From IMG/VR virus record IMGVR_UViG_3300031800_000005, positions 1 through 36,183 of that record: DNA of 36,183 bases, one strand, 5' to 3'. Of this stretch, positions 128 to 36,183 are shown in pieces. Below the pieces are notes generated by a model, which was given only the letters and a program-made list of their open reading frames with translations, had not been told where the DNA came from and made no database searches. Source of the DNA: a virus. The position numbers and the translations under genes were made by a program. Each line of letters starts with the position of its first letter. Positions within the stretch are counted from its first letter, which is position 1.

Positions 128-222
128 GCGGCGGCGAGGTCATCAACCTGGCGGTGCTGAAAACTTTGTGCTGGACGGTCGCTGGCGCGGCGCTTGCGCG
201 GGTGCTGGCGGTGGCGCTATGA
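124..222 (+). CDS. Small hydrophobic protein, 32 aa
   Basis: Begins at ATG 124 behind a good ribosome binding site (GGAGGG near 111-116) and overlaps both neighbours by ATGA. The 32-residue product has a hydrophobic stretch (LKTLCWTVAGAALARVLAVAL) that could form one membrane helix. It is too short for family assignment. The support is the Shine-Dalgarno sequence plus two four-base overlaps. It could be a small membrane-associated early phage protein; its function is unknown. Confidence 0.5.
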   Translation: MSGGEVINLAVLKTLCWTVAGAALARVLAVAL

Positions 223-701
223 GCAGCAAAGACCCGGACGACTACGACTACACGTTCCCCCATCACTCACAGTTCTCGCGGACGGAGGCCAACGAGGCTG
301 GTGCCGAGGTGGAAGACCCAGGGGCGTGGGCAAAGCCAGCCCCGTGGCCGAAGTATTCAGCCGCCGAGGAAATGCAGAAGCGGCTGGACGACGGGCAGCA
401 CACGCCAACCGTATATGTCAAAGAGCAATGGCACCGGAAAAAACCCCAGAAGGCGATCCCCGTCGGCCCGTACCGGGACAGTTGGCTGCTCGCGTCGTAC
501 AACAGCAAGCGTACTCCGACGTGCGCCCATTATGTCCAGGCAGCGGGGACTGGAGCAACCTACGTCGTGGGATGCCCAACCTGCGGCAAAGAGTACACGG
601 GCGCTCAAGGTCGGCCCCTTGAGTACGGTCGCCGCGAGGCTGCATTTGATACTGCCGACAAGTGGATATGCCCAAACAAAAACAAGGAGGGAACAACATG
701 A
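219..701 (+). CDS. Hypothetical phage protein with CPxCG-type cysteines, 160 aa
   Basis: I start this gene at ATG 219 (ATGA overlap with the gene before) although the frame stays open further upstream, because the upstream part is out of register with two better supported small genes. The N-terminus is very acidic and aromatic (SSKDPDDYDYTF). The C-terminal half carries CAHYVQ, then GCPTCGKEYTG, then WICPNKN. This cysteine spacing could bind one zinc. No enzymatic motif is seen. It belongs to the small-gene early operon and ends in an ATGA overlap with the next gene. Function unknown. Confidence 0.6.
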   Translation: MSSKDPDDYDYTFPHHSQFSRTEANEAGAEVEDPGAWAKPAPWPKYSAAEEMQKRLDDGQHTPTVYVKEQWHRKKPQKAIPVGPYRDSWLLASYNSKRTPTCAHYVQAAGTGATYVVGCPTCGKEYTGAQGRPLEYGRREAAFDTADKWICPNKNKEGTT

Positions 702-772
702 AAGGGAAACTGACAGAAATCCGAATCAAGAAGAACGGCCGATGGGTCATCAGGAGGCGATACAAATGGTAG
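698..772 (+). CDS. Very small basic protein, 24 aa
   Basis: ATG 698 follows a near-perfect ribosome binding site, AAGGAGG at 684-690, and overlaps the upstream stop (ATGA). The 24-residue product is strongly basic and aromatic (KKNGRWVIRRRYKW), so it may bind nucleic acid or protein acid patches. Its last bases contain the ribosome binding site and start of the next gene (ATG 766), so translation of this frame may mainly serve coupling. No homolog is recognised. Confidence 0.45.
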   Translation: MKGKLTEIRIKKNGRWVIRRRYKW

Positions 773-1011
773 ACGTAGTGCTAGAGGAACTGGTGCAGCG
801 GACGTGCCACGTCGGCGGCGAGAGCGTGGTCGTGACGCGCTACCACAACCCAGCCGGCGTGGAGTTTATCGAGGTGGACTTCGGCGGCGTGAGCGACCAA
901 CCAGGGTTGGTGCTGCCGGTGGCCGAGGCCGAGAACCTGGGGCGAGCATTGCGCGAGTGCGCGGTGCAGCTCCCAGACCCCCAAGGAGGGACAGAAAATG
1001 GCGACAGTTGA
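766..1011 (+). CDS. Hypothetical protein, 81 aa
   Basis: Starts at ATG 766 behind AGGAGG (752-757) and overlaps the preceding stop by 7 bases. The product is a small acidic, mostly beta-like protein (VVLEELVQRTCHVGG, FIEVDFGGVSD). No domain is recognised. It ends inside the start of the RecT-like gene (overlap 998-1011), and its 3' end carries that gene's ribosome binding site (AAGGAGGG, 983-990). It does not resemble the missing N-terminal half of RecT, so the pair is not a simply split recT. Confidence 0.6.
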   Translation: MVDVVLEELVQRTCHVGGESVVVTRYHNPAGVEFIEVDFGGVSDQPGLVLPVAEAENLGRALRECAVQLPDPQGGTENGDS

Positions 1012-1738
1012 GTTCATAACGGCGCAAGAGATAATCCAGACGGCGATGGCTGGGAAAGCCGTCCGCAGATGGGACGTGGACGTTGTCCGCGAAGGCGACA
1101 AGTTGTTTGAGTACACCAGCGGCGACAGCCCGAGCATTGCCCACTCCTACGACGCGCTCGACCCCGCGCGAGAGTCGAGGGAGATACTGGCCGCGTACAG
1201 CATCGTTAAACTGGCCAACGGCGAACGCCTGTACGAGGTAATGCCGAGGGCCGAGCTCGACAAGGCCCAAGCGCAGAGCAAGGCCAATGGGCCGAACAGC
1301 CCTTGGGCGAAGTGGCACAGCGAGATGTGCAAGAAGTGCGTGCAGAAGCGGCACGCGAAGCGGTTCTCGACTTCGCCCGAGCTGGCGGCGCTTATTCAGG
1401 CCGACCACGATGCGGAGGGTGCGCGCGAGCCCATCCACCACGACCAGCCCCCGACCGACTCCAACCGGGGCGGCTACGACCGAGCCGCCGACGACAGGCT
1501 GATCACCGAGCCGCAGCGCAAGCGGCTGTTCGCCATTGCCAAGAAGGCGCACGGCGACCAGGCAAACCAGGCCGTCGAGGCCGCGTTGTCGGCGGCGGGC
1601 CTTTCAACCACCAGCGACATCAAGCGCAGCCAGTACGACGCTGTAGTCGCTGAAGCTGAGTCTTGGGTCGAGCCCTCGCCCGAGGGTTACGTCGAGGCTG
1701 GGGGGGCAGATACGCCTGCCGGCGACGTATCGTGGTAG
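998..1738 (+). CDS. RecT-like recombinase C-terminal region with extra C-terminal domain
   Basis: RecT family proteins anneal single-stranded DNA in phage recombination. Residues ~1-135 match the second half of RecT: a VVREGDKLFEY segment, the IAHSYDA segment, AAYSIVKLANGERLYEVM, a PRAELDKAQAQSK segment, and PWAKWHSEMCKKC followed by a basic stretch (QKRHAKRF). The usual first ~90-100 residues of RecT are absent. The start is firm (ATG 998, AAGGAGGG 8 bases upstream). A linker of ~30 residues leads to a QRKRLFAIAKKAHG domain of ~55 residues, a tail often seen on phage recombination or replication proteins. No RecE- or lambda-Exo-like partner lies in the window. It may be a truncated or divergent annealing protein, or a non-annealing derivative. 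Confidence 0.72.
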   Translation: MATVEFITAQEIIQTAMAGKAVRRWDVDVVREGDKLFEYTSGDSPSIAHSYDALDPARESREILAAYSIVKLANGERLYEVMPRAELDKAQAQSKANGPNSPWAKWHSEMCKKCVQKRHAKRFSTSPELAALIQADHDAEGAREPIHHDQPPTDSNRGGYDRAADDRLITEPQRKRLFAIAKKAHGDQANQAVEAALSAAGLSTTSDIKRSQYDAVVAEAESWVEPSPEGYVEAGGADTPAGDVSW

Positions 1739-1773: not shown

Positions 1774-1914
1774 ATGGTCGTGATCGGAGTCCACCTGCCC
1801 GAGGCACTACTGACCCGCTTGGCCGCCCAGGTCGAGAAGAGCGGGCTTAACCGCGCGGAAGTGATCCGCGCAGCGATTTCACGCGGCCTGCGCCGCATGG
1901 AACGTCAACCATAA
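1774..1914 (+). CDS. Ribbon-helix-helix DNA-binding protein, 46 aa
   Basis: The product has the CopG/MetJ-like pattern: a beta strand (VVIGVHLPEALL), helix 1 (TRLAAQVEKSG), then helix 2 with LNRAEVIRAAISRGL. Such proteins dimerise and bind operator DNA, so a repressor or antitoxin-like role is likely. Start choice is uncertain: ATG 1774 gives a minimal RHH, and GTG 1732 would add 14 residues and overlap the RecT-like stop. Neither has a strong ribosome binding site. No toxin partner is seen beside it. Confidence 0.62.
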   Translation: MVVIGVHLPEALLTRLAAQVEKSGLNRAEVIRAAISRGLRRMERQP

Positions 1915-1932: not shown

Positions 1933-2421
1933 ATGCAACAGGGATTATTAAACGAGAAACAGGCGTGTAAAATGCTCGGGGTGTCAGCAGCCACGATGCA
2001 GAATTGGAGGTGTCTCAAAAAGGGGCCAGCGTTCACGAAGCTCGGCGACAGCATACGGTCGCCCGTGCGATACACGCTCGAGGCGGTCGAGGAGTTCTTC
2101 GGCGGGAAACTGACCGTCCCGCAGCCGAAGCGGTACGCGAAGAAACGGGGCAAGCAGCGGCGGCGTGGCGTTAGTCCGAACGGCGAGGTCGTTCGGTATG
2201 GCAAGGTTGACCACGACCAGCCAGCGGAAGCGGCGCAGGACAATGAGCCTGCCCGCGTGGTGGAGGTCACGCCGCCCAAGCCTGGTGTCCCCGACGAGTC
2301 CAGTCCCCTGACCGTGGACGCGCGACAACTGGCAGCCGTCATCCACAAACTGCTCAACCAACTGGTTGAGATGAAACAGCCAGTGACGCTCGACCGACTG
2401 GTTGAGCTGATCTCGGACTAG
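1933..2421 (+). CDS. Excisionase/MerR-like helix-turn-helix protein, 162 aa
   Basis: ATG 1933 is preceded by AAGGAGGAG (1917-1925). Residues ~5-55 read as a winged HTH_17 type domain: LLNEKQACKMLGVSAATMQNW as helix-turn-helix, then the KGPAFTKLGDSIRSPVRYTLEAVEEFF wing and helix typical of excisionase-like and phage AlpA/MerR-like proteins. A basic stretch follows (KRYAKKRGKQRRRG). The C-terminal part (AAVIHKLLNQLVEMKQPVTLDRLVELI) is probably helical and may dimerise. It likely binds DNA as an excisionase or early regulator. No integrase is in view, so a role in excision is not shown. It is the last gene before the terminator. Confidence 0.7.
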   Translation: MQQGLLNEKQACKMLGVSAATMQNWRCLKKGPAFTKLGDSIRSPVRYTLEAVEEFFGGKLTVPQPKRYAKKRGKQRRRGVSPNGEVVRYGKVDHDQPAEAAQDNEPARVVEVTPPKPGVPDESSPLTVDARQLAAVIHKLLNQLVEMKQPVTLDRLVELISD

Positions 2422-4563: not shown

Positions 4564-4781
<218 letters not shown>

Positions 4782-6369: not shown

Positions 6370-7579
6370 TCTCGCCGCCCCCCATATACTCGATGAAAAG
6401 GTGAGACTGGTTCGCTGTCCATAAAAACATTCCCTTCCTGTCGTCCTGTCGAGCTGACAATGCTGCCATTCGCACGCGGTCGCAGCGGTCGAGCAGCAGG
6501 ATGCTGCTGGCCGAAACGCCTATGTCTTGGCCACTCTCCTTGAAAACATTCGCGCCAGAGTAGAGGGCCGCCGTGCCGGTCGGCGTTGTGTCCGGCCCTT
6601 GGCCCGTTGGCCACGCGCCGAAGGTGCAGGCGGTACACAGGGTGGTAGGCAGAGCGCAGGTGGCCTCCCTGACCTCGCCGCGCACCGCGAGGTAGCCGCT
6701 GCGGGAGCCCTGGAACTCAGGCGTAAGGGCGACCGTGATCTGGTACACGCCGGCCTTTTCCACCGTCACGGTGCCGTTGTCAACGGATGGGGAGGTTGGG
6801 TCGAGCGTGAAAAAAGCAGGGTCAGGCGTGGTTGGAATCGACGTGTCGAGGTCGGCCTTCTCGAAGCTGGTGCCGATGCGGTCGCCATCGTCCCCGCAAG
6901 CGTTCGACGTTCCTGCCCCGTCGCAGTCGGTGTCGCGGTAATGCACGAACTTGCGAGGCTGGAGTTTGTAGAGCAATCGGTCGCCGCCGCAATATTGCAG
7001 CGTCTGGTCAACGATCACCATCTCGCCGCCCCGGTCGCACTGGGAGTCGAGTCCCACCGCGTCACACACAGCGGCCTCGTCGTCCGCGCAGTGCATACAT
7101 TCGCTGGTGCAGGTGTTCTGCGCCACCACGCAGGTGCCAGTCGGGCAGTCGCCATCAACGTTGCAGTAAGTACAAGCCTCCCCGGATGCGGTGCATGATC
7201 CCACGTCACCGGCTACGCCCGCGCCCGCCACCACACACGCGTTTCCCGTGTCCCATATGGGAGCCACCACGTCGCCTGGCGCGACACACGGGTTGACCGA
7301 GGCAGTGGATGCTCCGCAAACGAGCGCGTTATCCGCGCCGGTCTTCGTTTGCACGAATGACCGCTTTGCACTATCGCCGTCGGATGTTTCCCATGATTGA
7401 GCTTGGCAGCAGTTGGCAAACGCAGTGCCTGACCCGCCGACGCTGCACTCGGTTGCGCTGCCGCCGTCTGTACACTCAGCCCCAGAGTTCGGGCCGCAGG
7501 TGCAGTTATAGCCGGCGGTCGCCCAGGCGTTGCCAACAGGGAGAATGAGTGCGAGAGCTAAAACCAAAACCTTTATCAA
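6362..7579 (-). CDS. Secreted Cys-rich protein with C1q/TNF-like C-terminal domain
   Basis: Start chosen as TTG 7579, forming TTGA with the stop of the collagen gene; upstream extension would be out-of-frame shadow of that gene. The signal peptide reads LIKVLVLALALILPVGNAWA. Residues ~30-180 are Cys-rich (NCTCGPNSGAECTDGG, TYCNVDGDCPTGTC, TSECMHCADDEAAVC). The last ~140 residues fit a C1q-like jelly roll: TVTVEKAGVYQITVALTPEF, SGYLAVRGEV, a SILLLDRCDRVRMAAL strand pair and HLFIEYMGG at the end. C1q-like heads commonly trimerise on collagen stalks, which the upstream gene encodes. It is likely a fibre-head or adhesin subunit. Confidence 0.66.
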   Translation of the reverse strand: MIKVLVLALALILPVGNAWATAGYNCTCGPNSGAECTDGGSATECSVGGSGTAFANCCQAQSWETSDGDSAKRSFVQTKTGADNALVCGASTASVNPCVAPGDVVAPIWDTGNACVVAGAGVAGDVGSCTASGEACTYCNVDGDCPTGTCVVAQNTCTSECMHCADDEAAVCDAVGLDSQCDRGGEMVIVDQTLQYCGGDRLLYKLQPRKFVHYRDTDCDGAGTSNACGDDGDRIGTSFEKADLDTSIPTTPDPAFFTLDPTSPSVDNGTVTVEKAGVYQITVALTPEFQGSRSGYLAVRGEVREATCALPTTLCTACTFGAWPTGQGPDTTPTGTAALYSGANVFKESGQDIGVSASSILLLDRCDRVRMAALSARQDDRKGMFLWTANQSHLFIEYMGGGEND

Positions 7580-10500
7580 GAGCCAATCCTCACGACCGAA
7601 AGCACCATCGAGCCGCCGACCGGCGAGCCGCCGCCCGAGTTGCCCATCTGAACGAAAACAGGGGTTCCGGATGATGCGACGGTAAAAATCCAGTTCGCCG
7701 CAAAAGCGTTCTCGCCTGACGTGTTCCTGCCCACAGTCATGGTAAGGGTCTGGCGCACCGTTGGCGGCGTGCCAGTGCCCTGCCGCAGGGTGACATTGTG
7801 GGTGCTCTCCTCGCCGATGGCGATAGAGCCAGTGAGGTGCGCGGTGTACACGCCAGCACAAGCCTCTGTCTGGGTGATTTGTATATCGTCGCTGCCTGCG
7901 CTGCCTGCGCTGGCAGTGACGCAGGCAGTACTATTCGCCCCAGCGCCCCAGCCGCCGTATTTCGTCGCGTTGGAGCCGGCCGACGAGTTGCTCGACAACA
8001 TCCCCCAGATGGCTGTAGCGCCGCCGCCACCACCATCGTCAGCTTGGCACGTCCAGTCAGTATTCGCGCTGTTGCGCTTGACCACCTGGTCAGCGGCGCA
8101 GCTAAAGTCGGAAAAGGTAGTCTCGTCCGTCGTGTCGGAGTTGGGCCAGTCAGCCGCCACGTTGACCCACAGCTTGTCGTTCGAGGGTTCGGTGAAGATC
8201 GAGTTCGTGTCGCCAGTCACCGCGATCTCGTTCAGGTCGAGGGATTCGTTTTCTCCATCGTCCCCGAGGTCGTAAACAATAACCGATCCGTCGGCACCAG
8301 CCGCGCCGTCGATCCCGTCGCCACCCGTCAACCCAGTCAGCCCAGTCGCGCCATCGCTGCCGTTGGCCCCGGCTGCGCCCGCCGCGCCCGCCGAACCAGT
8401 AAGGTCAGCGCGTAGAGTCCAGGTCGAAGCGCCTGTCTTTTCTTTCACCTCGTCGGTGTCGGTCTGAAAATAAAGGTCGCCCACCGCGCCGAGCGCACCT
8501 GCCGGAGCTTCAGCGCCCGTGTGCCAGGTGGCTCCGTCGCTGCCGACCGCACCAGCGGCTCCGTCATTACCATCAGCACCAGGAGCGCCCGTCGTGCCGG
8601 TAGCGCCAGTCGTGCCGGTTGCTCCATCTAACCCGGCAGCCCCGGCTGCGCCTGCCGCGCCGGTCGAGCCGGTAGCGTCTGCGATCTCTGTCCAGGTCGA
8701 GGGAGCTCCGGTCTTCTCAAATATTTTGTCAACGCCCGCTCCTGTCTGGAAGTACAGGTCGCCCACTGCTCCAATAGAAAGTGGCACGCCCCCGCCCGTG
8801 TGCCAGGTCGAGCCGTCAGCACCAGCAGAGCCAGCGGCTCCGTCATTACCATCAGCACCAGCCGTGCCGGTGGTGCCGGTAGCGCCGGTCGTGCCCGTAG
8901 CTCCGGTCGATCCGTCGTTGCCAGCGGCCCCAGTGCCTCCCGTTGCCCCCGTTGCGCCTTGGCAGTCAGCCACGTCGCAGTCAGTATCGCCGTCGGTGTC
9001 CTCTGTCGCCAGGTTGCAGACACCGTTGGCGTTTAAGTCCCAACAGGCAGCCCCGACAGCACCCGCCGCTCCATCTACCCCGTCAGCCCCGGCTACCCCG
9101 GTGGTGCCCGTTGCGCCAGTCAATCCAGTCGCGCCGGTTGCTCCATCTACCCCGTTGGCCCCGGTAGTGCCTGTCGCGCCCGCCGCCCCGGTAGCGCCCT
9201 GGCAATCGTTCACGTCGCAGTCAGTATCGCCGTCGGTGTCTTCGGGGTCGAGATTACAAACGCCGTTGGCGTTCAAGTCCCAGCAGGCAGTACCGCCTGC
9301 ACCCGCCGCTCCGTCTAACCCGTCAGCCCCGGCTGGGCCGGTAGCACCGGTGGTGCCGGTAGCTCCTGTCGTTCCGGTCGTTCCCGTAGCTCCGGCAGCC
9401 CCATCTACCCCGTCAGCGCCAGCGGCCCCGGTGGCCCCTTGGCAGTCAGCCACATCGCAGTCAGTGTCGCCGTCGGTGTCCTCAGTCCCCAAGTCGCAGG
9501 ATCCGTTCGCGTTTAAGTCCCAGCAGGCCGTACCGCCCGCCCCGGCTGCGCCGTCTACCCCGTCAGCCCCAGCAGCACCAGCCGTTCCGGTTGCTCCTGT
9601 CAGTCCAGTCGATCCAGTCGCGCCATCGCTACCGTTGGCCCCAGCCGCCCCGGTTGTGCCTGTGGCCCCTGTGGCCCCCTGGCAGTCAGCCACATCGCAG
9701 TCGGTGTCACCGTCGGCATCCTCGGTCGCCACGTCGCACACGCCGTTGGCGTTCAAGTCCCAGCAGAAAGTCCCGGCGGCACCGTCGGCCCCGTCGGCAC
9801 CGGCGGCCCCGGTAGTACCTGTTGCCCCGGTGGTGCCTGTCGCGCCGGTCGCCCCATCAGCCCCATCGCCGCCAGCCGCACCATCGGCCCCAGTCAATCC
9901 AGTCTGGCCGGTAAAATCGCCTCGAGATGTCCAAACGGCGAGCCCGGTTTTCTCGAACCACTCATCTGACGTGGAGTTGAGGTAGAAATCACCCTGAACG
10001 CCCAGCCCGGTCGCCGGATCTGGTGTGCCTGTATGCCAGGTGGCTCCGTCATCACCAGCAGCGCCCGCAGCTCCGTCACTCCCGGCAGCCCCGGCTGCGC
10101 CATCACTACCGTCGGCACCCGCAGGGCCAGTCGCCCCGGTTGTGCCGGTTGCGCCCGCCGACCCATCAGCTCCGTCAACGCCGGCAGCCCCGGCTGCGCC
10201 GGTAAGGCCCGTGGCCCCCGTCGGCCCAGGAGCGCCCGTGGTGCCGGTAGCGCCCGTGGTGCCTGTAGCGCCCGCAGCGCCGTCGTTGCCGTCTGCTCCC
10301 GCCGCGCCCGCAGGCCCGGTAGCACCCGTCGTGCCGGTTGCTCCCGCCGCGCCGTCGTTGCCAGCGGTGCCCTGTGCCCCGGCTGCGCCGGTAGCTCCTG
10401 TCGTTCCGGTCGCGCCTGTAGCCCCGTCAGCGCCGCCCTCGGCCATTAGATCCATAACCGTCGTCCAGTTACCGCCCACGCCCGGTTCAGTCGAGCCGCC

Positions 10501-11574
10501 AGAGGTATGGTCGGCCGTGATTATGTAGCTCGATCCACCGTGCGCCACCGCGTCGTCGGCCACATATCCGGTCAACGTGACCCACGCGCCCTGCCAACTC
10601 ACCGAGCCGCCAGCGGCACCAGTCACGTCAGCGATGATCGTCCACTGAGCGCCGCCGGTCTTCTTAGAGATCGCGTCGGTCGTCGTGTTGAAATAAAAGT
10701 CGCCGCTGACCCCCAGGCCACTGTCAGGCGCTGTACTCCCCGAAAACCACTCCGCACCGTCTGTGCCTTGCGGCCCGGCTGCACCGGTGTTCCCGTTTAC
10801 GCCCTGGTCGCCGGTTAGGCCAGTATCACCCTGCACCCCGGCTGGGCCGGTAGCGCCGGCAGGGCCGGTCGCGCCAGCAACGCCGGTGCCGCCCTGCTGG
10901 GCTAAAAGATCCATCTTCGTTTCCCATGACACGCCGGTGCCCGGCTCTGTCACGCCGCTCGAGGTGTGCGCCGAGGTCACGATATAGCTCCCCCCACTGT
11001 GAGAGAAAGCATCATCGACGGCGTAAGCCGTCGCCGTAGTCCACGCGCCCTGCCAGTTGATGACCCCGCCAGGGTCAACGCACGGCTGCCACTCAAAATC
11101 CCCAGTCGTGTCCTCGTAAGTCAGGCATTCCTCATCGAGGGCTGAGTCCACCGCCTTGAGCATCGTCTCCACGACCTCGTTGTCTCCAGGCAGGCCGTCA
11201 TCAGTGCCGTCAGCGAAGCCAGCCGGGACTCCACTGAGCGAGTCCCAGGGAACGACATCGTCAGTATCCAACGTGCAGTTCAGCGTGGCCTCCCCGCAGT
11301 TGGTATCGTTACCGCTGGCTGCTGCCAGGGCCACCCAGGTCACGCCGTCGCTGCGGCACATAACCACATTCCCGGCGACCCCGGCGAGCCCAGTCGTGCA
11401 GTCAGTCCCATTCGCGCCGTCAGTTATCGAGCAGAGCATCCCCTTGCGCGCGGCTGAAGGCAGACTGCCAATCGTGGTGGGCGAGGAACAGCCGGTGCCG
11501 CCCTGCTCGGTACGCAAAGCCGCGTGCGCTGGTGTGGCAAGAATGAGGGCCAGGATGGTTGCTGCTATTTTCAA
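7576..11574 (-). CDS. Giant collagen-like secreted fibre protein, 1332 aa
   Basis: Begins with TTG 11574 (TTGA overlap) and a signal peptide (KIAATILALILATPAHA). Domain order: a globular N-region to ~165; a CBM5/12-like module (WQGAWTTATAYAVDDAF, ~170-228); collagen Gly-X-Y repeats; a GDFYFNTTTDAISKKTGG module; a second WQGAW module (~328-378); long Thr/Ala-rich Gly-X-Y tracts (GATGTTGATGPAG); four GDxYF...EKTG modules in all; four CWDLNANGVCD...DTDCDVADCQG modules; and a C-terminal jelly-roll-like domain (IFTVASSGTPVFVQMGN). Phage collagen-like fibres form triple helices stabilised without hydroxyproline. The Sec signal is unusual for a tail fibre and suggests surface display or secretion. 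Confidence 0.85.
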   Translation of the reverse strand: MKIAATILALILATPAHAALRTEQGGTGCSSPTTIGSLPSAARKGMLCSITDGANGTDCTTGLAGVAGNVVMCRSDGVTWVALAAASGNDTNCGEATLNCTLDTDDVVPWDSLSGVPAGFADGTDDGLPGDNEVVETMLKAVDSALDEECLTYEDTTGDFEWQPCVDPGGVINWQGAWTTATAYAVDDAFSHSGGSYIVTSAHTSSGVTEPGTGVSWETKMDLLAQQGGTGVAGATGPAGATGPAGVQGDTGLTGDQGVNGNTGAAGPQGTDGAEWFSGSTAPDSGLGVSGDFYFNTTTDAISKKTGGAQWTIIADVTGAAGGSVSWQGAWVTLTGYVADDAVAHGGSSYIITADHTSGGSTEPGVGGNWTTVMDLMAEGGADGATGATGTTGATGAAGAQGTAGNDGAAGATGTTGATGPAGAAGADGNDGAAGATGTTGATGTTGAPGPTGATGLTGAAGAAGVDGADGSAGATGTTGATGPAGADGSDGAAGAAGSDGAAGAAGDDGATWHTGTPDPATGLGVQGDFYLNSTSDEWFEKTGLAVWTSRGDFTGQTGLTGADGAAGGDGADGATGATGTTGATGTTGAAGADGADGAAGTFCWDLNANGVCDVATEDADGDTDCDVADCQGATGATGTTGAAGANGSDGATGSTGLTGATGTAGAAGADGVDGAAGAGGTACWDLNANGSCDLGTEDTDGDTDCDVADCQGATGAAGADGVDGAAGATGTTGTTGATGTTGATGPAGADGLDGAAGAGGTACWDLNANGVCNLDPEDTDGDTDCDVNDCQGATGAAGATGTTGANGVDGATGATGLTGATGTTGVAGADGVDGAAGAVGAACWDLNANGVCNLATEDTDGDTDCDVADCQGATGATGGTGAAGNDGSTGATGTTGATGTTGTAGADGNDGAAGSAGADGSTWHTGGGVPLSIGAVGDLYFQTGAGVDKIFEKTGAPSTWTEIADATGSTGAAGAAGAAGLDGATGTTGATGTTGAPGADGNDGAAGAVGSDGATWHTGAEAPAGALGAVGDLYFQTDTDEVKEKTGASTWTLRADLTGSAGAAGAAGANGSDGATGLTGLTGGDGIDGAAGADGSVIVYDLGDDGENESLDLNEIAVTGDTNSIFTEPSNDKLWVNVAADWPNSDTTDETTFSDFSCAADQVVKRNSANTDWTCQADDGGGGGATAIWGMLSSNSSAGSNATKYGGWGAGANSTACVTASAGSAGSDDIQITQTEACAGVYTAHLTGSIAIGEESTHNVTLRQGTGTPPTVRQTLTMTVGRNTSGENAFAANWIFTVASSGTPVFVQMGNSGGGSPVGGSMVLSVVRIGS
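8959..9770. repeat. Four CWDLNANG modules at exact 240-bp spacing
   Basis: Near-identical ~92-bp blocks start at 8959, 9199, 9439 and 9679, an exact 240-bp (80-codon) period. Each encodes a module of the form CWDLNANGxC, then ED(T/A)DGDTDCDV, then a DCQG that runs straight into Gly-X-Y collagen. The intervening ~48 collagen residues keep constant length but differ more in sequence. The Asp spacing suggests calcium binding and the four cysteines suggest disulfides. The pattern fits expansion by unequal recombination. Confidence 0.9.
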
Positions 11575-30952: not shown

Positions 30953-32322
30953 AGGGCGGGTGCCTCCGCTGCGATCAGCTCCCGCTCGTCCTCGACCTCG
31001 AGGCTGGCCATCAGCAAACCACGGCGCTTGAGCTCGGCCAGGAACGTGGCCTGCGACAGGTCGCCAGCCGCCCGGCTCTTGAGCAGGGAGTCCACGTCGC
31101 TCACGTCGCGCAGGCTGATGCCGAAGTCCTGGTGGATGTCCACCCCATCGGTCACGTCGGCCATGCCGACCCAAGCGCCCATGAGCCCCAGCGCGCTCTC
31201 GAGCGAGCTCTCGAGGCCGCGAACCATCCCGGCGAGCTCTGAGTCGAACTGCGCCTGGTCAAGTGCCCGCTCCGTCGCGGTCATGCTGCCAGTGCGTTGC
31301 CCGACCATGAGCTCCAGGCCCATGACCCTCATCCTGTCTTGTATATCTGAAATTGAGTCGCGGCCGGCTGATATCGCCCTCCCGCTGTGCTCCACATAGC
31401 TCAACGTGGCCTGGGTGTCCGGATGTTGAATAACTCGGTTCGGCCCGATCTCGAACAGATCGCCGTCGAATCCCGTGGCCAGAAGCAGGGGCACGCGCGC
31501 GTAGTGAAGGATATTTCCTTGATCGCTACTGCTCTGCCAGTGCTCGACCGCCAAATGGGCCAAGTCACGCAGGGGCGGGGTCGCCTGCATGAAGCCCGTG
31601 CGGTGCGTGTAGACAGCGACCAGTGGGATATCGCTCATGCCGGGCGTTGCGCCCTCGTCCACAAGCAGATAGTCCGTCACCTGGTCATCGTTCACGACGC
31701 GCTCGAAAACGCGGAACGAGCCCGGCTCGAGTACCCGTATGCGCTCGGCCACGGCCTCCCCGAAATCACCGTCGGCGATAACGCTGTCTTCGCGGATGCG
31801 TACCTGCACCAGGCGCTCCCGACCGCCCACAGCGGCCGTCTGCCACCCGATCACCTGGCGGCAGTCGATGTTGACCAGGTAGGGACGCACGCCGGCAGAT
31901 TGTTCGTCGGCCAGGGTCATCTCGTCGTCGGTCTTCGGGAAGTCCACCAGGATGTAGCTCACGCCGTCGCGCACAGCCGCCTCGAAGCAGTCACGGGCGA
32001 ACGTGTCCAGATCGGTGCCCTGGAGGTCAACGTCGTCCATCCAGGCCAGCAGCATCGAGTCAGTGCCCTCGCCCAGCCCCACTGGGCGGCTGAACGGCTT
32101 GCCCGCCAGTGTCCTGATCGTCCGCTTGAGGGCGTTGAACAGCACCGACCGCTCGAGTCTGATCTCATAAGCCTCGTCAGATTCAGCCGGCTCCTGCGGC
32201 AGGTAGGTGCGGCCAGCCACGCGCATGGCCTTTGTGCCGCCCCAGAGTGCGCCGACCAGGTTCCAGTCGTCAAGCAGCGAGTTGTAGGTATCGGAGGGGG
32301 TTTGGACTTTATCGGTGGGCAT
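30949..32322 (-). CDS. Portal protein, DUF4055 family
   Basis: The 457-residue product matches the DUF4055 portal pattern: WNLVGALWGGTKAMRVAGRT, YLPQEPAESDEAYEIRLERS, FNALKRTIRTLAGKPFSRPV near the start, and PPLRDLAHLAVEHWQSSSDQ in the middle. Portal dodecamers form the DNA entry channel of the capsid. The place right after the large terminase gene (TAATG overlap) is standard. Confidence 0.9.
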   Translation of the reverse strand: MPTDKVQTPSDTYNSLLDDWNLVGALWGGTKAMRVAGRTYLPQEPAESDEAYEIRLERSVLFNALKRTIRTLAGKPFSRPVGLGEGTDSMLLAWMDDVDLQGTDLDTFARDCFEAAVRDGVSYILVDFPKTDDEMTLADEQSAGVRPYLVNIDCRQVIGWQTAAVGGRERLVQVRIREDSVIADGDFGEAVAERIRVLEPGSFRVFERVVNDDQVTDYLLVDEGATPGMSDIPLVAVYTHRTGFMQATPPLRDLAHLAVEHWQSSSDQGNILHYARVPLLLATGFDGDLFEIGPNRVIQHPDTQATLSYVEHSGRAISAGRDSISDIQDRMRVMGLELMVGQRTGSMTATERALDQAQFDSELAGMVRGLESSLESALGLMGAWVGMADVTDGVDIHQDFGISLRDVSDVDSLLKSRAAGDLSQATFLAELKRRGLLMASLEVEDERELIAAEAPAL

Positions 32323-33638
32323 TAAAATAGAACCTCTTTCGTTACGGCGCGGCGGCCTGCCATTGGGAATTGCTGCATGACCAGGTAGCCGAGCGCATCG
32401 GCCTGGTGATCCAGGCCACTGGTTTTATCTGGCTGGTTGGTTTCGGGCTTGTAGACCAGGCCGTCGAGCGACTTGATGAGATGCTTGCAGCGCGGGTGTA
32501 TCTTGAGCCGCCGATGTCCCGCCGCGTCCTTCAAGAGCGCGTTCACGGTGTTGATTCGGTCAACCACAGCAGGGGCGCTGGAGGGGGCCGACACTTTCCA
32601 GCCGTGCCGACGTAGGATCGTAAAATCGGTCTGTCCCACTGGTGCACTGGTCTTGCGGGCCTTGCCCGACGGATCGGGGCAGATAATCACGTCCCGCCGG
32701 CGGGTGGTCACGCCAGTGGTGCCCTCTACCCTACCAGCGGCACGGATCCGCTCGAGCTCCTGTTCGGTCAGGCCACGGGTCGCGTACTTGGCCTCGATGT
32801 GGTCGGCCATCTCCTCGGTGTTGGAGTTTGACAGCACCACCTCGTCGAATATGTGGAGCTCGTCTGCGGCACGGCAGCCTACCACGCAGCTCATGGGGTC
32901 TACGTTGAAGTCCATTCCGATCAGCAGCGGGCCGCCCTGGTCTTCTACCTGGCTCGAGACACTGAGCTCGCGGTCAAAACCCCAGTACACCCGCCCGGCC
33001 ACTGACTCGAAGCTGGCCTCGTATTCAGCGCGGTAAGTCTTCTCGTCCATCTCGCTGCGGGCGCTGACCAGCTCCTCTGGCGGCACCCACCCACCGTCGG
33101 CGGTCGTGAACTGCCAACCCCACCAGTCGCGGTTCGCTGGGTCGGTGGCGTGGCAATAGAGATCGTAGAAATGATTGAAGCCGCCAGGGGTGCCGATGAA
33201 CATCGCCCGCCCGAGCTTGTCGGACAAGGCGGGCCTAAGCACCTCCTCCCAAGCGTCCGGCTTCATCGTGGCGAACTCATCTAGCACCAGGTTGTCCAGG
33301 CCGGCACCGCGAAGCGAGTCGAAATTGTCAGCGCCCTTCAGCCGAACCATCGCCCCGTTCGTGAGCTCGAGGGACAGCTCTGTCTGGTGTACGCCGTGGA
33401 CAATCTCAGGTGGGCACATGGTGTTCAGAGCCTTCCAGGCGATCAACTTGGCTTGTCGGTATGTCGGCGCGACGTACCAGTTCTCCGAGCCGGGGTTGCC
33501 CATCGCAGCCGCCAGCAGCTCAGTGAGCGCGAGCGTGGTCTTGCCGAACCGCCGGCCAGCGACCACGACACGGAAACGCCGCTCGGCGCGCGCGTTGAAG
33601 ATTCGACTTTGCGCCAGCGATAGCTCAACTTTCATCAT
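32322..33638 (-). CDS. terL: Terminase large subunit
   Basis: The ATPase part has Walker A VAGRRFGKTT (~26-35), the VAPTYRQAKLIAWKAL segment and Walker B NLVLDEFA (~116-123), followed by FIGTPGGFNHFYD. The RNase H-like nuclease part shows GMDFNVDPMSCVVG (first Asp) and ends in LDHQADALGYLVMQ (last Asp). The enzyme pumps and cuts genome DNA at the portal. Two start codons in a row (33638, 33635) overlap the small subunit gene. Confidence 0.94.
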   Translation of the reverse strand: MMKVELSLAQSRIFNARAERRFRVVVAGRRFGKTTLALTELLAAAMGNPGSENWYVAPTYRQAKLIAWKALNTMCPPEIVHGVHQTELSLELTNGAMVRLKGADNFDSLRGAGLDNLVLDEFATMKPDAWEEVLRPALSDKLGRAMFIGTPGGFNHFYDLYCHATDPANRDWWGWQFTTADGGWVPPEELVSARSEMDEKTYRAEYEASFESVAGRVYWGFDRELSVSSQVEDQGGPLLIGMDFNVDPMSCVVGCRAADELHIFDEVVLSNSNTEEMADHIEAKYATRGLTEQELERIRAAGRVEGTTGVTTRRRDVIICPDPSGKARKTSAPVGQTDFTILRRHGWKVSAPSSAPAVVDRINTVNALLKDAAGHRRLKIHPRCKHLIKSLDGLVYKPETNQPDKTSGLDHQADALGYLVMQQFPMAGRRAVTKEVLF

Positions 33639-34035
33639 CGTCGGGTTTCGATGCCTCGTCTGGCTCGCCCTGCGTGACGATCTGGAAGGCTATCGGCTGC
33701 GAGCCTGTCACGTTCACGTCCTGGCGGTCGTGTCGGCCCCACTTGGTTGGCGAGCGGCGCTCGAGGAACCAGGCGGCTGCCCGCCAGTCGTCCCTAGACG
33801 CGATCTGCACCCGTTTGAGGCTGTCATTGAGCGCCTCCGAGGTCGCCTGCGCTACTGCCTGCACTAACTCCCAATGCGGGCCGCTGTCTGACTCGCGTCC
33901 GAGCTTCATCCATTTGTAGTACGTTGTCTCGCTGATACCGACGGCGGCGGCTGCGTGCTCGGCGTAACAGCCTTGCCGCAACAGGGAGACAATGCCGTCG
34001 TGCACCTCTGGTGTGAGCTTTTTTGGTCGGGCCAT
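33625..34035 (-). CDS. terS: Terminase small subunit
   Basis: The N-terminus is a helix-turn-helix of the phage small-terminase type: PEVHDGIVSLLRQGCYAEHA, AAAVGISETTYYKWMKLGRE. It is followed by a helical region (WELVQAVAQATSEALNDSLK) and DDWRAAAWFLERRSPTKWGR, a motif shared by many small terminases. It recognises the packaging site and loads the large subunit. The start has AGGAAC upstream. Confidence 0.88.
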   Translation of the reverse strand: MARPKKLTPEVHDGIVSLLRQGCYAEHAAAAVGISETTYYKWMKLGRESDSGPHWELVQAVAQATSEALNDSLKRVQIASRDDWRAAAWFLERRSPTKWGRHDRQDVNVTGSQPIAFQIVTQGEPDEASKPDDDES

Positions 34036-34041
34036 GTGTTC

Positions 34042-34293
34042 CTAATCTGCGCCCCTGAGCGTGGCGCGCAAGTACGCCTGCCGGTGTTCAAGCCATCCGA
34101 TGACCTTGTTGAGGTCTTCGATCTCTGATTCGGAGGCGCTTTTGCCTGGCGCGAGCTTCAATCCAGCGCGGTAAATGTACTCGATCACGATGGCCTTGTA
34201 GCCCGGCATTGACGAGCTCACGATCATGTCCCGAGGCTCGATGCCGCCATATTGCGTGTAATGGCTGTCGTCGGGCTTCTCGTCAGTCGCCAC
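34042..34293 (-). CDS. DUF3310-like small protein, 83 aa
   Basis: Begins with GTG 34293. The pattern HYTQYGGIEPRDMIVSSSMP, YKAIVIEYIYRAGLK and EIEDLNKVIGWLEHR matches DUF3310, often annotated in phages as a nucleotide-kinase-related protein. The biochemical role of the short, single-domain form is unclear. Next gene downstream is the small terminase. Confidence 0.75.
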   Translation of the reverse strand: MATDEKPDDSHYTQYGGIEPRDMIVSSSMPGYKAIVIEYIYRAGLKLAPGKSASESEIEDLNKVIGWLEHRQAYLRATLRGAD

Positions 34294-34414
34294 AGCAGTT
34301 CTCTTGCATCATGCGGTAGAGCTCGCAGGTGACGTTCAGGCAGTACGCCTTGAGCTTGATCGGCGTGAGCGGGCCGCCGCAGGACACGCAGCACGGTGAG
34401 CGCGGGACGGCCAT
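34283..34414 (-). CDS. Small zinc-ribbon-like protein, 43 aa
   Basis: ATG 34414 shares a base with the upstream stop (TGATG). The product has CCVSCGGPLTPIKLKAYCLN and a further C, plus a CC near the end, consistent with one zinc site. A longer reading to 34537 would run antisense-like through the neighbouring gene and is not used. Function unknown. Confidence 0.6.
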   Translation of the reverse strand: MAVPRSPCCVSCGGPLTPIKLKAYCLNVTCELYRMMQENCCGD

Positions 34415-34734
34415 CAGTCTGCCTCCTCCTGTGTTCGCAGTCGCCAGGGCATCGGAGCGCCCTCGAGCTTCTGGTAAGGGCGGTGGCCCATCAGCGGGCA
34501 CTCTGTCACTTCGCAGTTTCCGATTCGCCATTGCCAACCGGGATCAGAATCAAAGCCCTGGCAGCAATAGCACATCGAAGCGATTGCCAGCTTCTTCGAG
34601 CCAGGCGTGCGTTCAGCTCGGTCGGTGGGGCTTAGTACCTGCCGCTTTTTTCCTTCCGCTCGGAGCTGTGCGAGTTTTGCCTGCGCTGCCTGAATCCCTG
34701 CGGCTCCGCGAGTTGCCTTCTTCTTTGTCGCCAC
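34414..34734 (-). CDS. Phage zinc-binding protein, CxxC...C...CPL type, 106 aa
   Basis: GTG 34734 has GGAGGTG as ribosome binding site. After a basic, helical N-terminus (ATKKKATRGAAGIQAAQAKL) comes AIASMCYCCQGFDSDPGW and IGNCEVTECPLMGHRPYQK, a cysteine pattern widespread in small phage proteins of unknown role near endonuclease and terminase genes. Likely binds one zinc. It overlaps the endonuclease gene by 122 bases in another frame, one of the longer overlaps here. Confidence 0.7.
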   Translation of the reverse strand: MATKKKATRGAAGIQAAQAKLAQLRAEGKKRQVLSPTDRAERTPGSKKLAIASMCYCCQGFDSDPGWQWRIGNCEVTECPLMGHRPYQKLEGAPMPWRLRTQEEAD

Positions 34735-35086
34735 TGCCCACCTCCATGCGGCTTAACGCCGCCATCACCTGTTCGGACACCCTGAGAGGATCAGCCTTGA
34801 GCATCGCCGCCGTGTATCGCAGCACCAGCCACCCCTGGGTGAGCGCGGCGTTGTACTTCTCGCAGTCGGCCTCGAAGCCCTTGCCTCGAGTGTGCCTGCC
34901 GCCTGACCAGGTGCCGCCCTCGGTTTCGACCGCCACGCCGCCGCAATCAGCGTTCCCGCAATGCGCCGGCCAGGCGAAGTCAAAGCGCCAGCGGCGGGTG
35001 CTGTCGAAGCGGTACTCGCGGACAGGCGCGCGCCCGTTGCCTAGCAGCTCCCACATCCCGGCGAAGGTCTCCTCGAGTGCGCTCAC
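34613..35086 (-). CDS. PD-(D/E)XK-like phage endonuclease (Vsr/DUF559-like)
   Basis: Residues ~20-100 read as a small restriction-fold nuclease: APVREYRFDSTRRWRFDFAW with the catalytic Asp, VAVETEGGTWSGGRHTRGKG with Glu, then EADCEKYNAALTQGWLVLRY. Phage enzymes of this kind may resolve DNA junctions or trim ends before packaging. The C-terminal ~45 residues are basic and disordered (SRSRRDSGSAGKTRTAPSGR). It starts at GTG 35086, just after the acetyltransferase gene. Confidence 0.8.
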   Translation of the reverse strand: MSALEETFAGMWELLGNGRAPVREYRFDSTRRWRFDFAWPAHCGNADCGGVAVETEGGTWSGGRHTRGKGFEADCEKYNAALTQGWLVLRYTAAMLKADPLRVSEQVMAALSRMEVGSGDKEEGNSRSRRDSGSAGKTRTAPSGRKKAAGTKPHRPS

Positions 35087-35093
35087 CTAGTCG

Positions 35094-35675
35094 TCATTTC
35101 CTGTTGGCCCATGCCATTTTGGGTAGCTGTACGGCGGGCTTGAACCCACGAGGAGCAGAGTCCAAGAATCCAGAGTCATCATATCGGCTATCAATCCGAA
35201 CCTCACTTGTGGGCAGCACCGCGATGCTGTGAATGCTGAACAGTTGAGGTGTAAGCCACATCTGCCACGCGTTGATTGTGCGCCCACGCCTCGCCCCGCC
35301 GGGGCATGAGCCTACGCAAGAAAATCCCATATCACGCCAAAAGACATTGGCTTCGAGATCGGCGGCGCAACGAACCCGCACTTCGTCAAGACCCACCCCC
35401 TCGATTCGGAGAAGGGCCGCGAGCAGGGCTTCGCCAAACTTACGCCGTCGAGCGTCGTACTGAATACACGCCTGCGGTATCCGCACAACGCCACCGCTGC
35501 GGTCGTACATGACATAACCAACAGGGTCTACATCCTCGCGGGCGATAAGCACCGTACCGAGGTGCAGCCGTTCGATAACGGCGGGTTGGGGCAACCCACC
35601 GACGGATTCTCGGTTTTTCCGCATTAACGACATCACATATTTTACGTCGCTTGGTTTGCCGACACCGATTTTCAT
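35094..35675 (-). CDS. Phage GNAT-family acetyltransferase
   Basis: Contains LMRKNRESVGGLPQPAVIER, VGYVMYDRSGGVVRIPQACI, YDARRRKFGEALLAALLRIE (acetyl-CoA loop with RxxxxG) and VRVRCAADLEANVFWRDMGF, a recognised phage GNAT pattern. The target is unknown; members may modify host proteins or inactivate toxins. Start is ATG 35675, in an ATGA overlap with the upstream gene. The last ~50 residues (from ~145) are an extension past the usual fold. Confidence 0.83.
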   Translation of the reverse strand: MKIGVGKPSDVKYVMSLMRKNRESVGGLPQPAVIERLHLGTVLIAREDVDPVGYVMYDRSGGVVRIPQACIQYDARRRKFGEALLAALLRIEGVGLDEVRVRCAADLEANVFWRDMGFSCVGSCPGGARRGRTINAWQMWLTPQLFSIHSIAVLPTSEVRIDSRYDDSGFLDSAPRGFKPAVQLPKMAWANRK

Positions 35676-36183
35676 GCCCCGTTCTCCTCGAAGTCGGGAA
35701 GCGCCCGGCTGGTGATCGAAACGACGGTCGCTCGCCGCTTGCCGCCTCGGCGTTTCCGCTGCCTGCCCCGCTCGCGCTCAAACACGGCCACGCGGATGCG
35801 CTCTGCGTTCCACTCGCTCTCGCCCAGTGTTTGCAAATAGGAGCAGCACCAGTCGAGCGAGAAAGGGCGGTTGCAGTCCGGGTCGATCTCACGGAACCAG
35901 GCCACTGCGTCCCTGTAGTCAACCGAACGCCCGTCCTGCCGTGAGATGTTGTGCGGGCCTCGGTCGAGGTCTGCCCGCGCCTGGTTGATGACCGCCATGA
36001 GCAGCTTGAGCTCGTTCGCGGTCGCGTGGCCGAAGCCCTTCGGCTGGCTGACGACATACACGTCAGGGAAGAAGCCAGGCGCGTGGGCACGCCGGTCGCG
36101 CTTGTTCGCGCGTAGGTGCTGCGGCAGGTCGCGGTTGATTTCGCTCAACCCCTCAATGACGTGATCGGGAGGGCGGTTGGCGT
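35672..36183 (-). CDS. Unknown phage protein, 5' end outside the window
   Basis: The frame is open to the right edge. The first conventional start inside is TTG 36148, but upstream codons (RPPDHVIEGLSEI) read like coding sequence, so the gene is probably truncated by the window. Features: a basic early region (LRANKRDRRAH), KGFGHATANELKLLMAVINQ, WFREIDPDCNRPFSLDWCCS, and a basic KR-rich stretch (RERGRQRKRRGGKRR). Possibly DNA-associated; no family recognised. Confidence 0.6.
   Translation of the reverse strand, partial: ANRPPDHVIEGLSEINRDLPQHLRANKRDRRAHAPGFFPDVYVVSQPKGFGHATANELKLLMAVINQARADLDRGPHNISRQDGRSVDYRDAVAWFREIDPDCNRPFSLDWCCSYLQTLGESEWNAERIRVAVFERERGRQRKRRGGKRRATVVSITSRALPDFEENGA

Follow-up and report, generated by a model that had tools for sequence, protein, structure and literature searches.

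A short RecT-like reading frame in an uncultivated phage lacking the N-terminal half of RecT

A 246-aa open reading frame near the left end of an uncultivated phage record raises the question of what a RecT that begins in its own middle can be: a working protein, a regulator, a remnant or a product of assembly. The window analysed here is the whole of virus record IMGVR_UViG_3300031800_000005 (36,183 bases). The frame, referred to below as the short RecT, lies at 998..1738 on the plus strand.

Extent of the RecT similarity

The short RecT was matched by PF03837 (E 2.9e-14; profile positions 66-185 of 198) and by phrog_148 (E 2.1e-27; profile positions 115-318 of 387). Its PF03837 score of 53.5 bits lies above the Pfam curated cut-off of 24; the scores obtained with NCBIfam TIGR00616 (33.2 bits, cut-off 52.65) and NF007351 (43 bits, cut-off 296) lie below theirs. 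Judged by these profiles, the frame is related to RecT, with a similarity far above chance. An AAGGAGG ribosome-binding site (983..989, plus strand) precedes the ATG by 8 nt. A sequence-only reading of the locus had described a RecT relative that begins mid-RecT behind a strong ribosome-binding site, and both the profile coverage from position 66 and the AAGGAGG motif bear this out. That reading had also rejected a start-call error, which can be ruled out: the in-frame stop upstream is the TGA at 890, and no ATG, GTG or TTG is found in frame between it and the ATG of the short recT.

In 83 relatives, 64-183 residues are open 5' of the point equivalent to the first Met of the window's frame. 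The earlier estimate of about 90-100 absent N-terminal residues was therefore reasonable, but the 29 residues that follow also show little likeness to RecT, and by sequence comparison the loss goes deeper into RecT than had been stated. Following alignment with 39 relatives, 0/9 conserved columns were kept in residues 1-29 (998..1084, plus strand), against 23/31 in residues 30-140. Of the 40 sequences, the short RecT came last in the first stretch and fourth from last in the second, whereas L252, with an equally diverged C-lobe (23/33), still keeps 7/9 in the first. Using two profiles of relatives, the score of residues 1-29 was reached by 489/2000 and 1185/2000 shuffles, and residues 30-60 outscored 2000/2000. 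As a control, the segment equivalent to residues 1-29 was scored in nine divergent relatives; eight outscored all 1000 shuffles, and for the ninth (L002) 339/1000 shuffles were as good. The Pfam and PHROG alignments both begin at residue 13, and removal of residues 1-29 cost 5.0 of 53.5 bits (Pfam) and 6.9 of 97.7 bits (PHROGs). Because the signal from residue 13 is weak and residues 1-29 score poorly, the edge of the RecT similarity is placed somewhere within residues 13-30.

The source of the N-terminal sequence was sought with residues 1-38, which gave no phage match at E <= 10; their best PHROG matches were weak (phrog_18887, E 0.018; phrog_28849, E 0.093). A frame-shifted upstream region encoding the missing half, named in the sequence-only reading as the finding that would overturn it, was sought and not found: a RecT N-half profile, run at full sensitivity against all window frames of at least 15 aa, gave a best match of only E 1.9. 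In the control, the profile recovered 83 ORFs at E <= 1e-3, these being the same sequences from which it had been built. Apart from the short RecT itself, PF03837 had no match at E <= 10 anywhere in the 36,183-base record.

Retained C-lobe and C-terminal domain

The conserved core had earlier been said to be retained, and the 23/31 columns kept in residues 30-140 (1085..1417, plus strand) agree with this. An AlphaFold2 model of the short RecT was built from 37 aligned sequences. Mean pLDDT per ten residues was 43 for residues 1-10, 61 for residues 11-20 and 91-97 over residues 21-120; over residues 171-220 the mean was 79-83. Foldseek against the PDB (E <= 0.001) returned two matches, both LiRecT. 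Model residues 5-133 were superposed on LiRecT 107-224 of 7ub2 (Z 11.4, rmsd 3.2) and residues 9-125 on LiRecT 110-219 of 7ubb (Z 9.7, rmsd 2.7, 108 aligned), the latter being the LiRecT chain in the ssDNA complex, with 112 residues modelled. As in the LiRecT C-lobe, the beta3-beta5 sheet and helix alpha-3 are present in the model, and the alpha-3 contacts K206/R210/N211/K215 of LiRecT correspond to K113/K117/R118/K121, within a helix at residues 107-124 (1316..1369, plus strand).

Missing in comparison with LiRecT are the three-helix bundle of the N-lobe, the beta1-beta2 wedge hairpin and a recognisable alpha-2 sequence. The alignment shows neither clamp lobe nor wedge hairpin in the short RecT, the LiRecT hairpin residues V98, Y100 and K101 having no counterpart. 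At the place of alpha-2 a helix (residues 9-18) was modelled at low confidence, and the input alignment, which includes full RecT sequences, may favour placing it there. Residues K111 and G112 of LiRecT alpha-2 align with Q10 and E11. The alanine mutant of K111 disrupts DNA binding, but the loss of this residue says little, because the position is Gly in the L168 group; only G112 is telling, being Gly in 39/39 relatives and Glu in the short RecT.

Residues 164-229 (1487..1684, plus strand) form a putative Redbeta-like C-terminal domain in the model; they align with 64/69 residues of the Redbeta C-terminal domain (8tfu_B; rmsd 2.8, Z 6.7), at 6% identity and with a Z below the tool's safe level for helical folds. 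The stretch QRKRLFAIAKK had previously been taken for an added domain. This was not supported: because phrog_148 spans the stretch, continuing to residue 218, and the model there matches the Redbeta domain, the stretch probably belongs to a known module. According to passages of PMC8093625, this C-terminal module is common to many annealing proteins.

As modelled, the remaining part is expected to fold and may make contact with single-stranded DNA. A working reduced form could be built on this, with a C-lobe filament binding ssDNA and the C-terminal domain bringing it to DNA that is coated with SSB or resected by an exonuclease. What 7ubb shows of LiRecT on ssDNA is approximately the part kept here, and both the conserved C-lobe positions and the basic residues of alpha-3 are retained. 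Against such a form stand the loss of G112 and of the alpha-2 segment's 9 conserved positions, and the location of some of the LiRecT inter-subunit contact in the missing N-lobe. Moreover, Redbeta deprived of only its first 19 or 37 residues was inactive in recombination assays, according to passages of PMC5052646, and no other phage among those surveyed uses a reduced form. We consider it fairly unlikely.

Alternatively, the product might act as a regulator or poison, joining the full-length RecT of its own or a co-infecting phage through the retained lower interface and the C-terminal domain, and capping its filaments. The C-lobe region that forms the lower inter-subunit core in LiRecT is indeed retained, but the LiRecT interface residues F171, W216 and I218 read E76, R122 and S124; I114 is retained (I13), and L118 corresponds to M17. 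This mapping decides little, since relatives also differ from LiRecT at those places. A full-length partner was looked for and not found in the record, which is itself a fragment. Of the readings considered, the regulator is the one we think least probable.

Relatives and origin of the short form

Among the matches listed, the N-half was present in 247/249 related C-half ORFs (158 different C-lobe sequences, loosely grouped into 31 clusters), which argues that the short form is derived. The survey omitted L001, L006, which is the window itself, and L166, which shares a contig with L167. Each search behind it required the C-half, and 82 of the surveyed sequences had gone into building the N-half profile. 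The two exceptions were L167 and L002. The latter gave no N-half profile match, yet it is 312 aa long and carries a divergent N-half of its own. Thus, the survey of similar short forms suggested earlier yielded one contig in which the N-half has been replaced; the other exception is full length. In 299 genomes of one phylum, 13/14 PF03837 matches began at profile positions 2-11; the fourteenth (G095) covered 115-194 in a 423-aa frame. No report of a natural RecT without its N-lobe was present among the literature matches listed, in which 'rect' also matches unrelated words.

L167 is IMG/VR contig 3300020044_004051, with recT at nt 1070-1843 and its N-half swapped for unrelated sequence. Compared with L168, similarity (80% over 807 nt) sets in abruptly inside recT at nt 1258, before KVQYMPM; upstream of this point lie unrelated DNA and a foreign recT 5' end. 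No convincing match was found for the origin of the foreign N-terminus. The joint lies earlier than in the short RecT, the alpha-2 segment being kept in L167, and the two foreign 5' ends differ. On these comparisons L167 represents an independent replacement of the same recT half. Both known joints spare the C-lobe, but this carries no weight, because the searches could find C-lobe carriers only. By eye, an ORF with a P-loop-like GRPGTGKT motif was noted in the upstream DNA of L167, in place of the exonuclease.

The contig might instead join two genomes inside recT as an assembly chimera. The change sits 1 kb from the contig edge of a metagenomic virus record, near its left end, and a search of viral contigs for a second copy found none. 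A random join, however, would rarely come with a single start, a strong ribosome-binding site and an upstream ORF coupled to the frame, and L167 has a similar recT joint in another contig, though it too is possibly chimeric. We judge a chimera unlikely.

The reading that we favour, at about even probability, is that a mosaic joint in recT has left a product that does not anneal DNA, although it may retain some binding to ssDNA or to a partner. What is observed is that the N-half is missing, the frame is intact, the C-lobe and the basic residues of alpha-3 are kept, and the gene occupies its customary position ahead of an HTH gene. On this reading, the 5' part of the gene would have been exchanged for unrelated phage DNA by mosaic (illegitimate) recombination, and a new start and ribosome-binding site would have given an intact frame for the C-lobe and the Redbeta-like C-terminal domain only. 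No ancestor or sister allele was found, and the replacement event is therefore one that we infer. In passages of PMC9772228, the LiRecT C-lobe binds ssDNA with the N-lobe in a disordered state, and a clamping role on the annealed duplex is proposed for the N-lobe. With the whole N-lobe and most of alpha-2 missing, the short RecT is probably non-annealing, on the precedents of LiRecT and of truncated Redbeta. Presumably it is translated and folds alone; with no N-terminal clamp or wedge hairpin and little of alpha-2, it would fail to consolidate annealing. At most, weak ssDNA binding and contacts of the C-terminal domain with SSB or exonuclease would be left, and the product would behave as the vestige of an exonuclease-RecT operon, without annealing activity. 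A point against this is that a truncated EcRecT of about 200 residues kept its activity in a dCas9 editor; the passages of PMC8843813 leave unstated which end had been cut.

Several observations count against a remnant. The frame is without signs of decay (246 codons, no stop), its base composition by codon position is neighbour-like (0.65/0.48/0.83, compared with 0.64/0.45/0.78 in the terminase gene), and 23/31 kept C-lobe positions is the level of full-length relatives of similar divergence. Nevertheless, known phage mosaicism explains the short RecT more readily than a new system does. Of the three options raised in the sequence-only reading (a reduced annealing protein, a regulator and a decayed gene), a non-annealing remnant thus comes out as the most likely and the other two as less so. 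If the short RecT is a mere remnant, then together with L167 it would indicate that mosaic joints occur inside recT and leave open C-lobe frames, which still get annotated as RecT.

Neighbouring genes and the 81-aa protein

A YqaJ-type exonuclease gene stands beside recT in 221/249 relatives (among the matches listed). In the window, a frame open at the contig edge (2..127, plus strand; ending ...RGFRFPKPF...) may be the tail of such an exonuclease. The resemblance, to exonuclease ends found upstream of full-length recT, is weak: 114/2000 shuffles score equally and the frame lies outside the top six of 1012 window frames. The YqaJ profile itself found nothing in the record. Two further ORFs lie between recT and the contig end, a 160-aa ORF (219..701, plus strand), without a notable Pfam or PHROG family match, and an 81-aa ORF (766..1011, plus strand). 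Downstream of recT are genes for a ribbon-helix-helix (CopG-like) protein (1774..1914, plus strand; PF01402, E 1.7e-7) and a helix-turn-helix protein (1933..2421, plus strand; PF12728, E 3e-7). The latter corresponds to the HTH gene found after recT in relatives, with 23/51 residues (45%) identical to that of L168 (E 3e-14).

The gene order in MW202722 (ctQRb9) and MW202640 (ctEw122) is exonuclease, recT, HTH gene and convergent lysis genes; in the window it is recT, ribbon-helix-helix gene, HTH gene and convergent genes beginning with a phosphoesterase. Both phages and L168 share with the window the C-lobe sequence and the recT-HTH order before convergent late genes, but all three retain the N-half, with an exonuclease gene (annotated or recognisable) immediately before recT; neither is visible in the window. 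Searches of viral contigs with the 160-aa ORF, the 81-aa ORF and the phosphoesterase gene found no relatives, and so supplied no close relative of this region.

The 81-aa ORF overlaps the start of recT by 14 nt and has no family match in Pfam, PHROG or NCBIfam. A single-sequence model (pLDDT 74, pTM 0.60) has the order beta-beta-beta-beta-alpha. Its best structural match is PUR-alpha, an ssDNA-binding protein (Foldseek E 0.22, probability 0.95; Z 7.2, below the tool's reliable level), and this modelled likeness is a lead only. The ORF was also considered as a split, diverged N-half of RecT and judged unlikely to be one; its model is unlike the LiRecT helix bundle and hairpin, and it gave no score with the N-half profile.

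For a working reduced form, the overlapping and co-translated 81-aa protein might add a second ssDNA-binding surface, although the PUR match lies under the reliable level and comes from a single-sequence model. The fullest version of that alternative, a naturally clamp-less RecT whose C-lobe and C-terminal domain coat or hand over ssDNA and which is made together with a PUR-like protein, seems to us very unlikely. If true, it would split ssDNA binding from the proposed RecT/Redbeta clamping step in one natural protein. A natural protein reduced to the C-lobe would also be a ready reagent to test binding against clamping, as proposed for LiRecT in passages of PMC9772228.

ERF and SSB profiles gave nothing on the record at E <= 10. 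The record ends near recT, and L007, a close relative whose terminase is 95% identical, extends about 1.9 kb beyond the right end of the window, so sequence is missing. The record being a fragment, an intact annealase may sit outside it.

Window 32162-36175 aligns with L007 in three blocks of 88.7-95.9% identity, with unrelated genes between them. A GNAT-like ORF in the window (35094-35675) stands where L007 has a PAPS-reductase-like ORF, and L007 also carries a methyltransferase with a ParB-like N-terminus. Elsewhere in the window, GTCGTT is repeated in 6.7 copies at 4571-4610, inside ORFs near a transglycosylase gene. Finally, a 1332-aa ORF on the minus strand (7576-11574) has long Gly-X-Y (collagen-like) stretches and contains 240-bp tandem repeats at 8945-9869.
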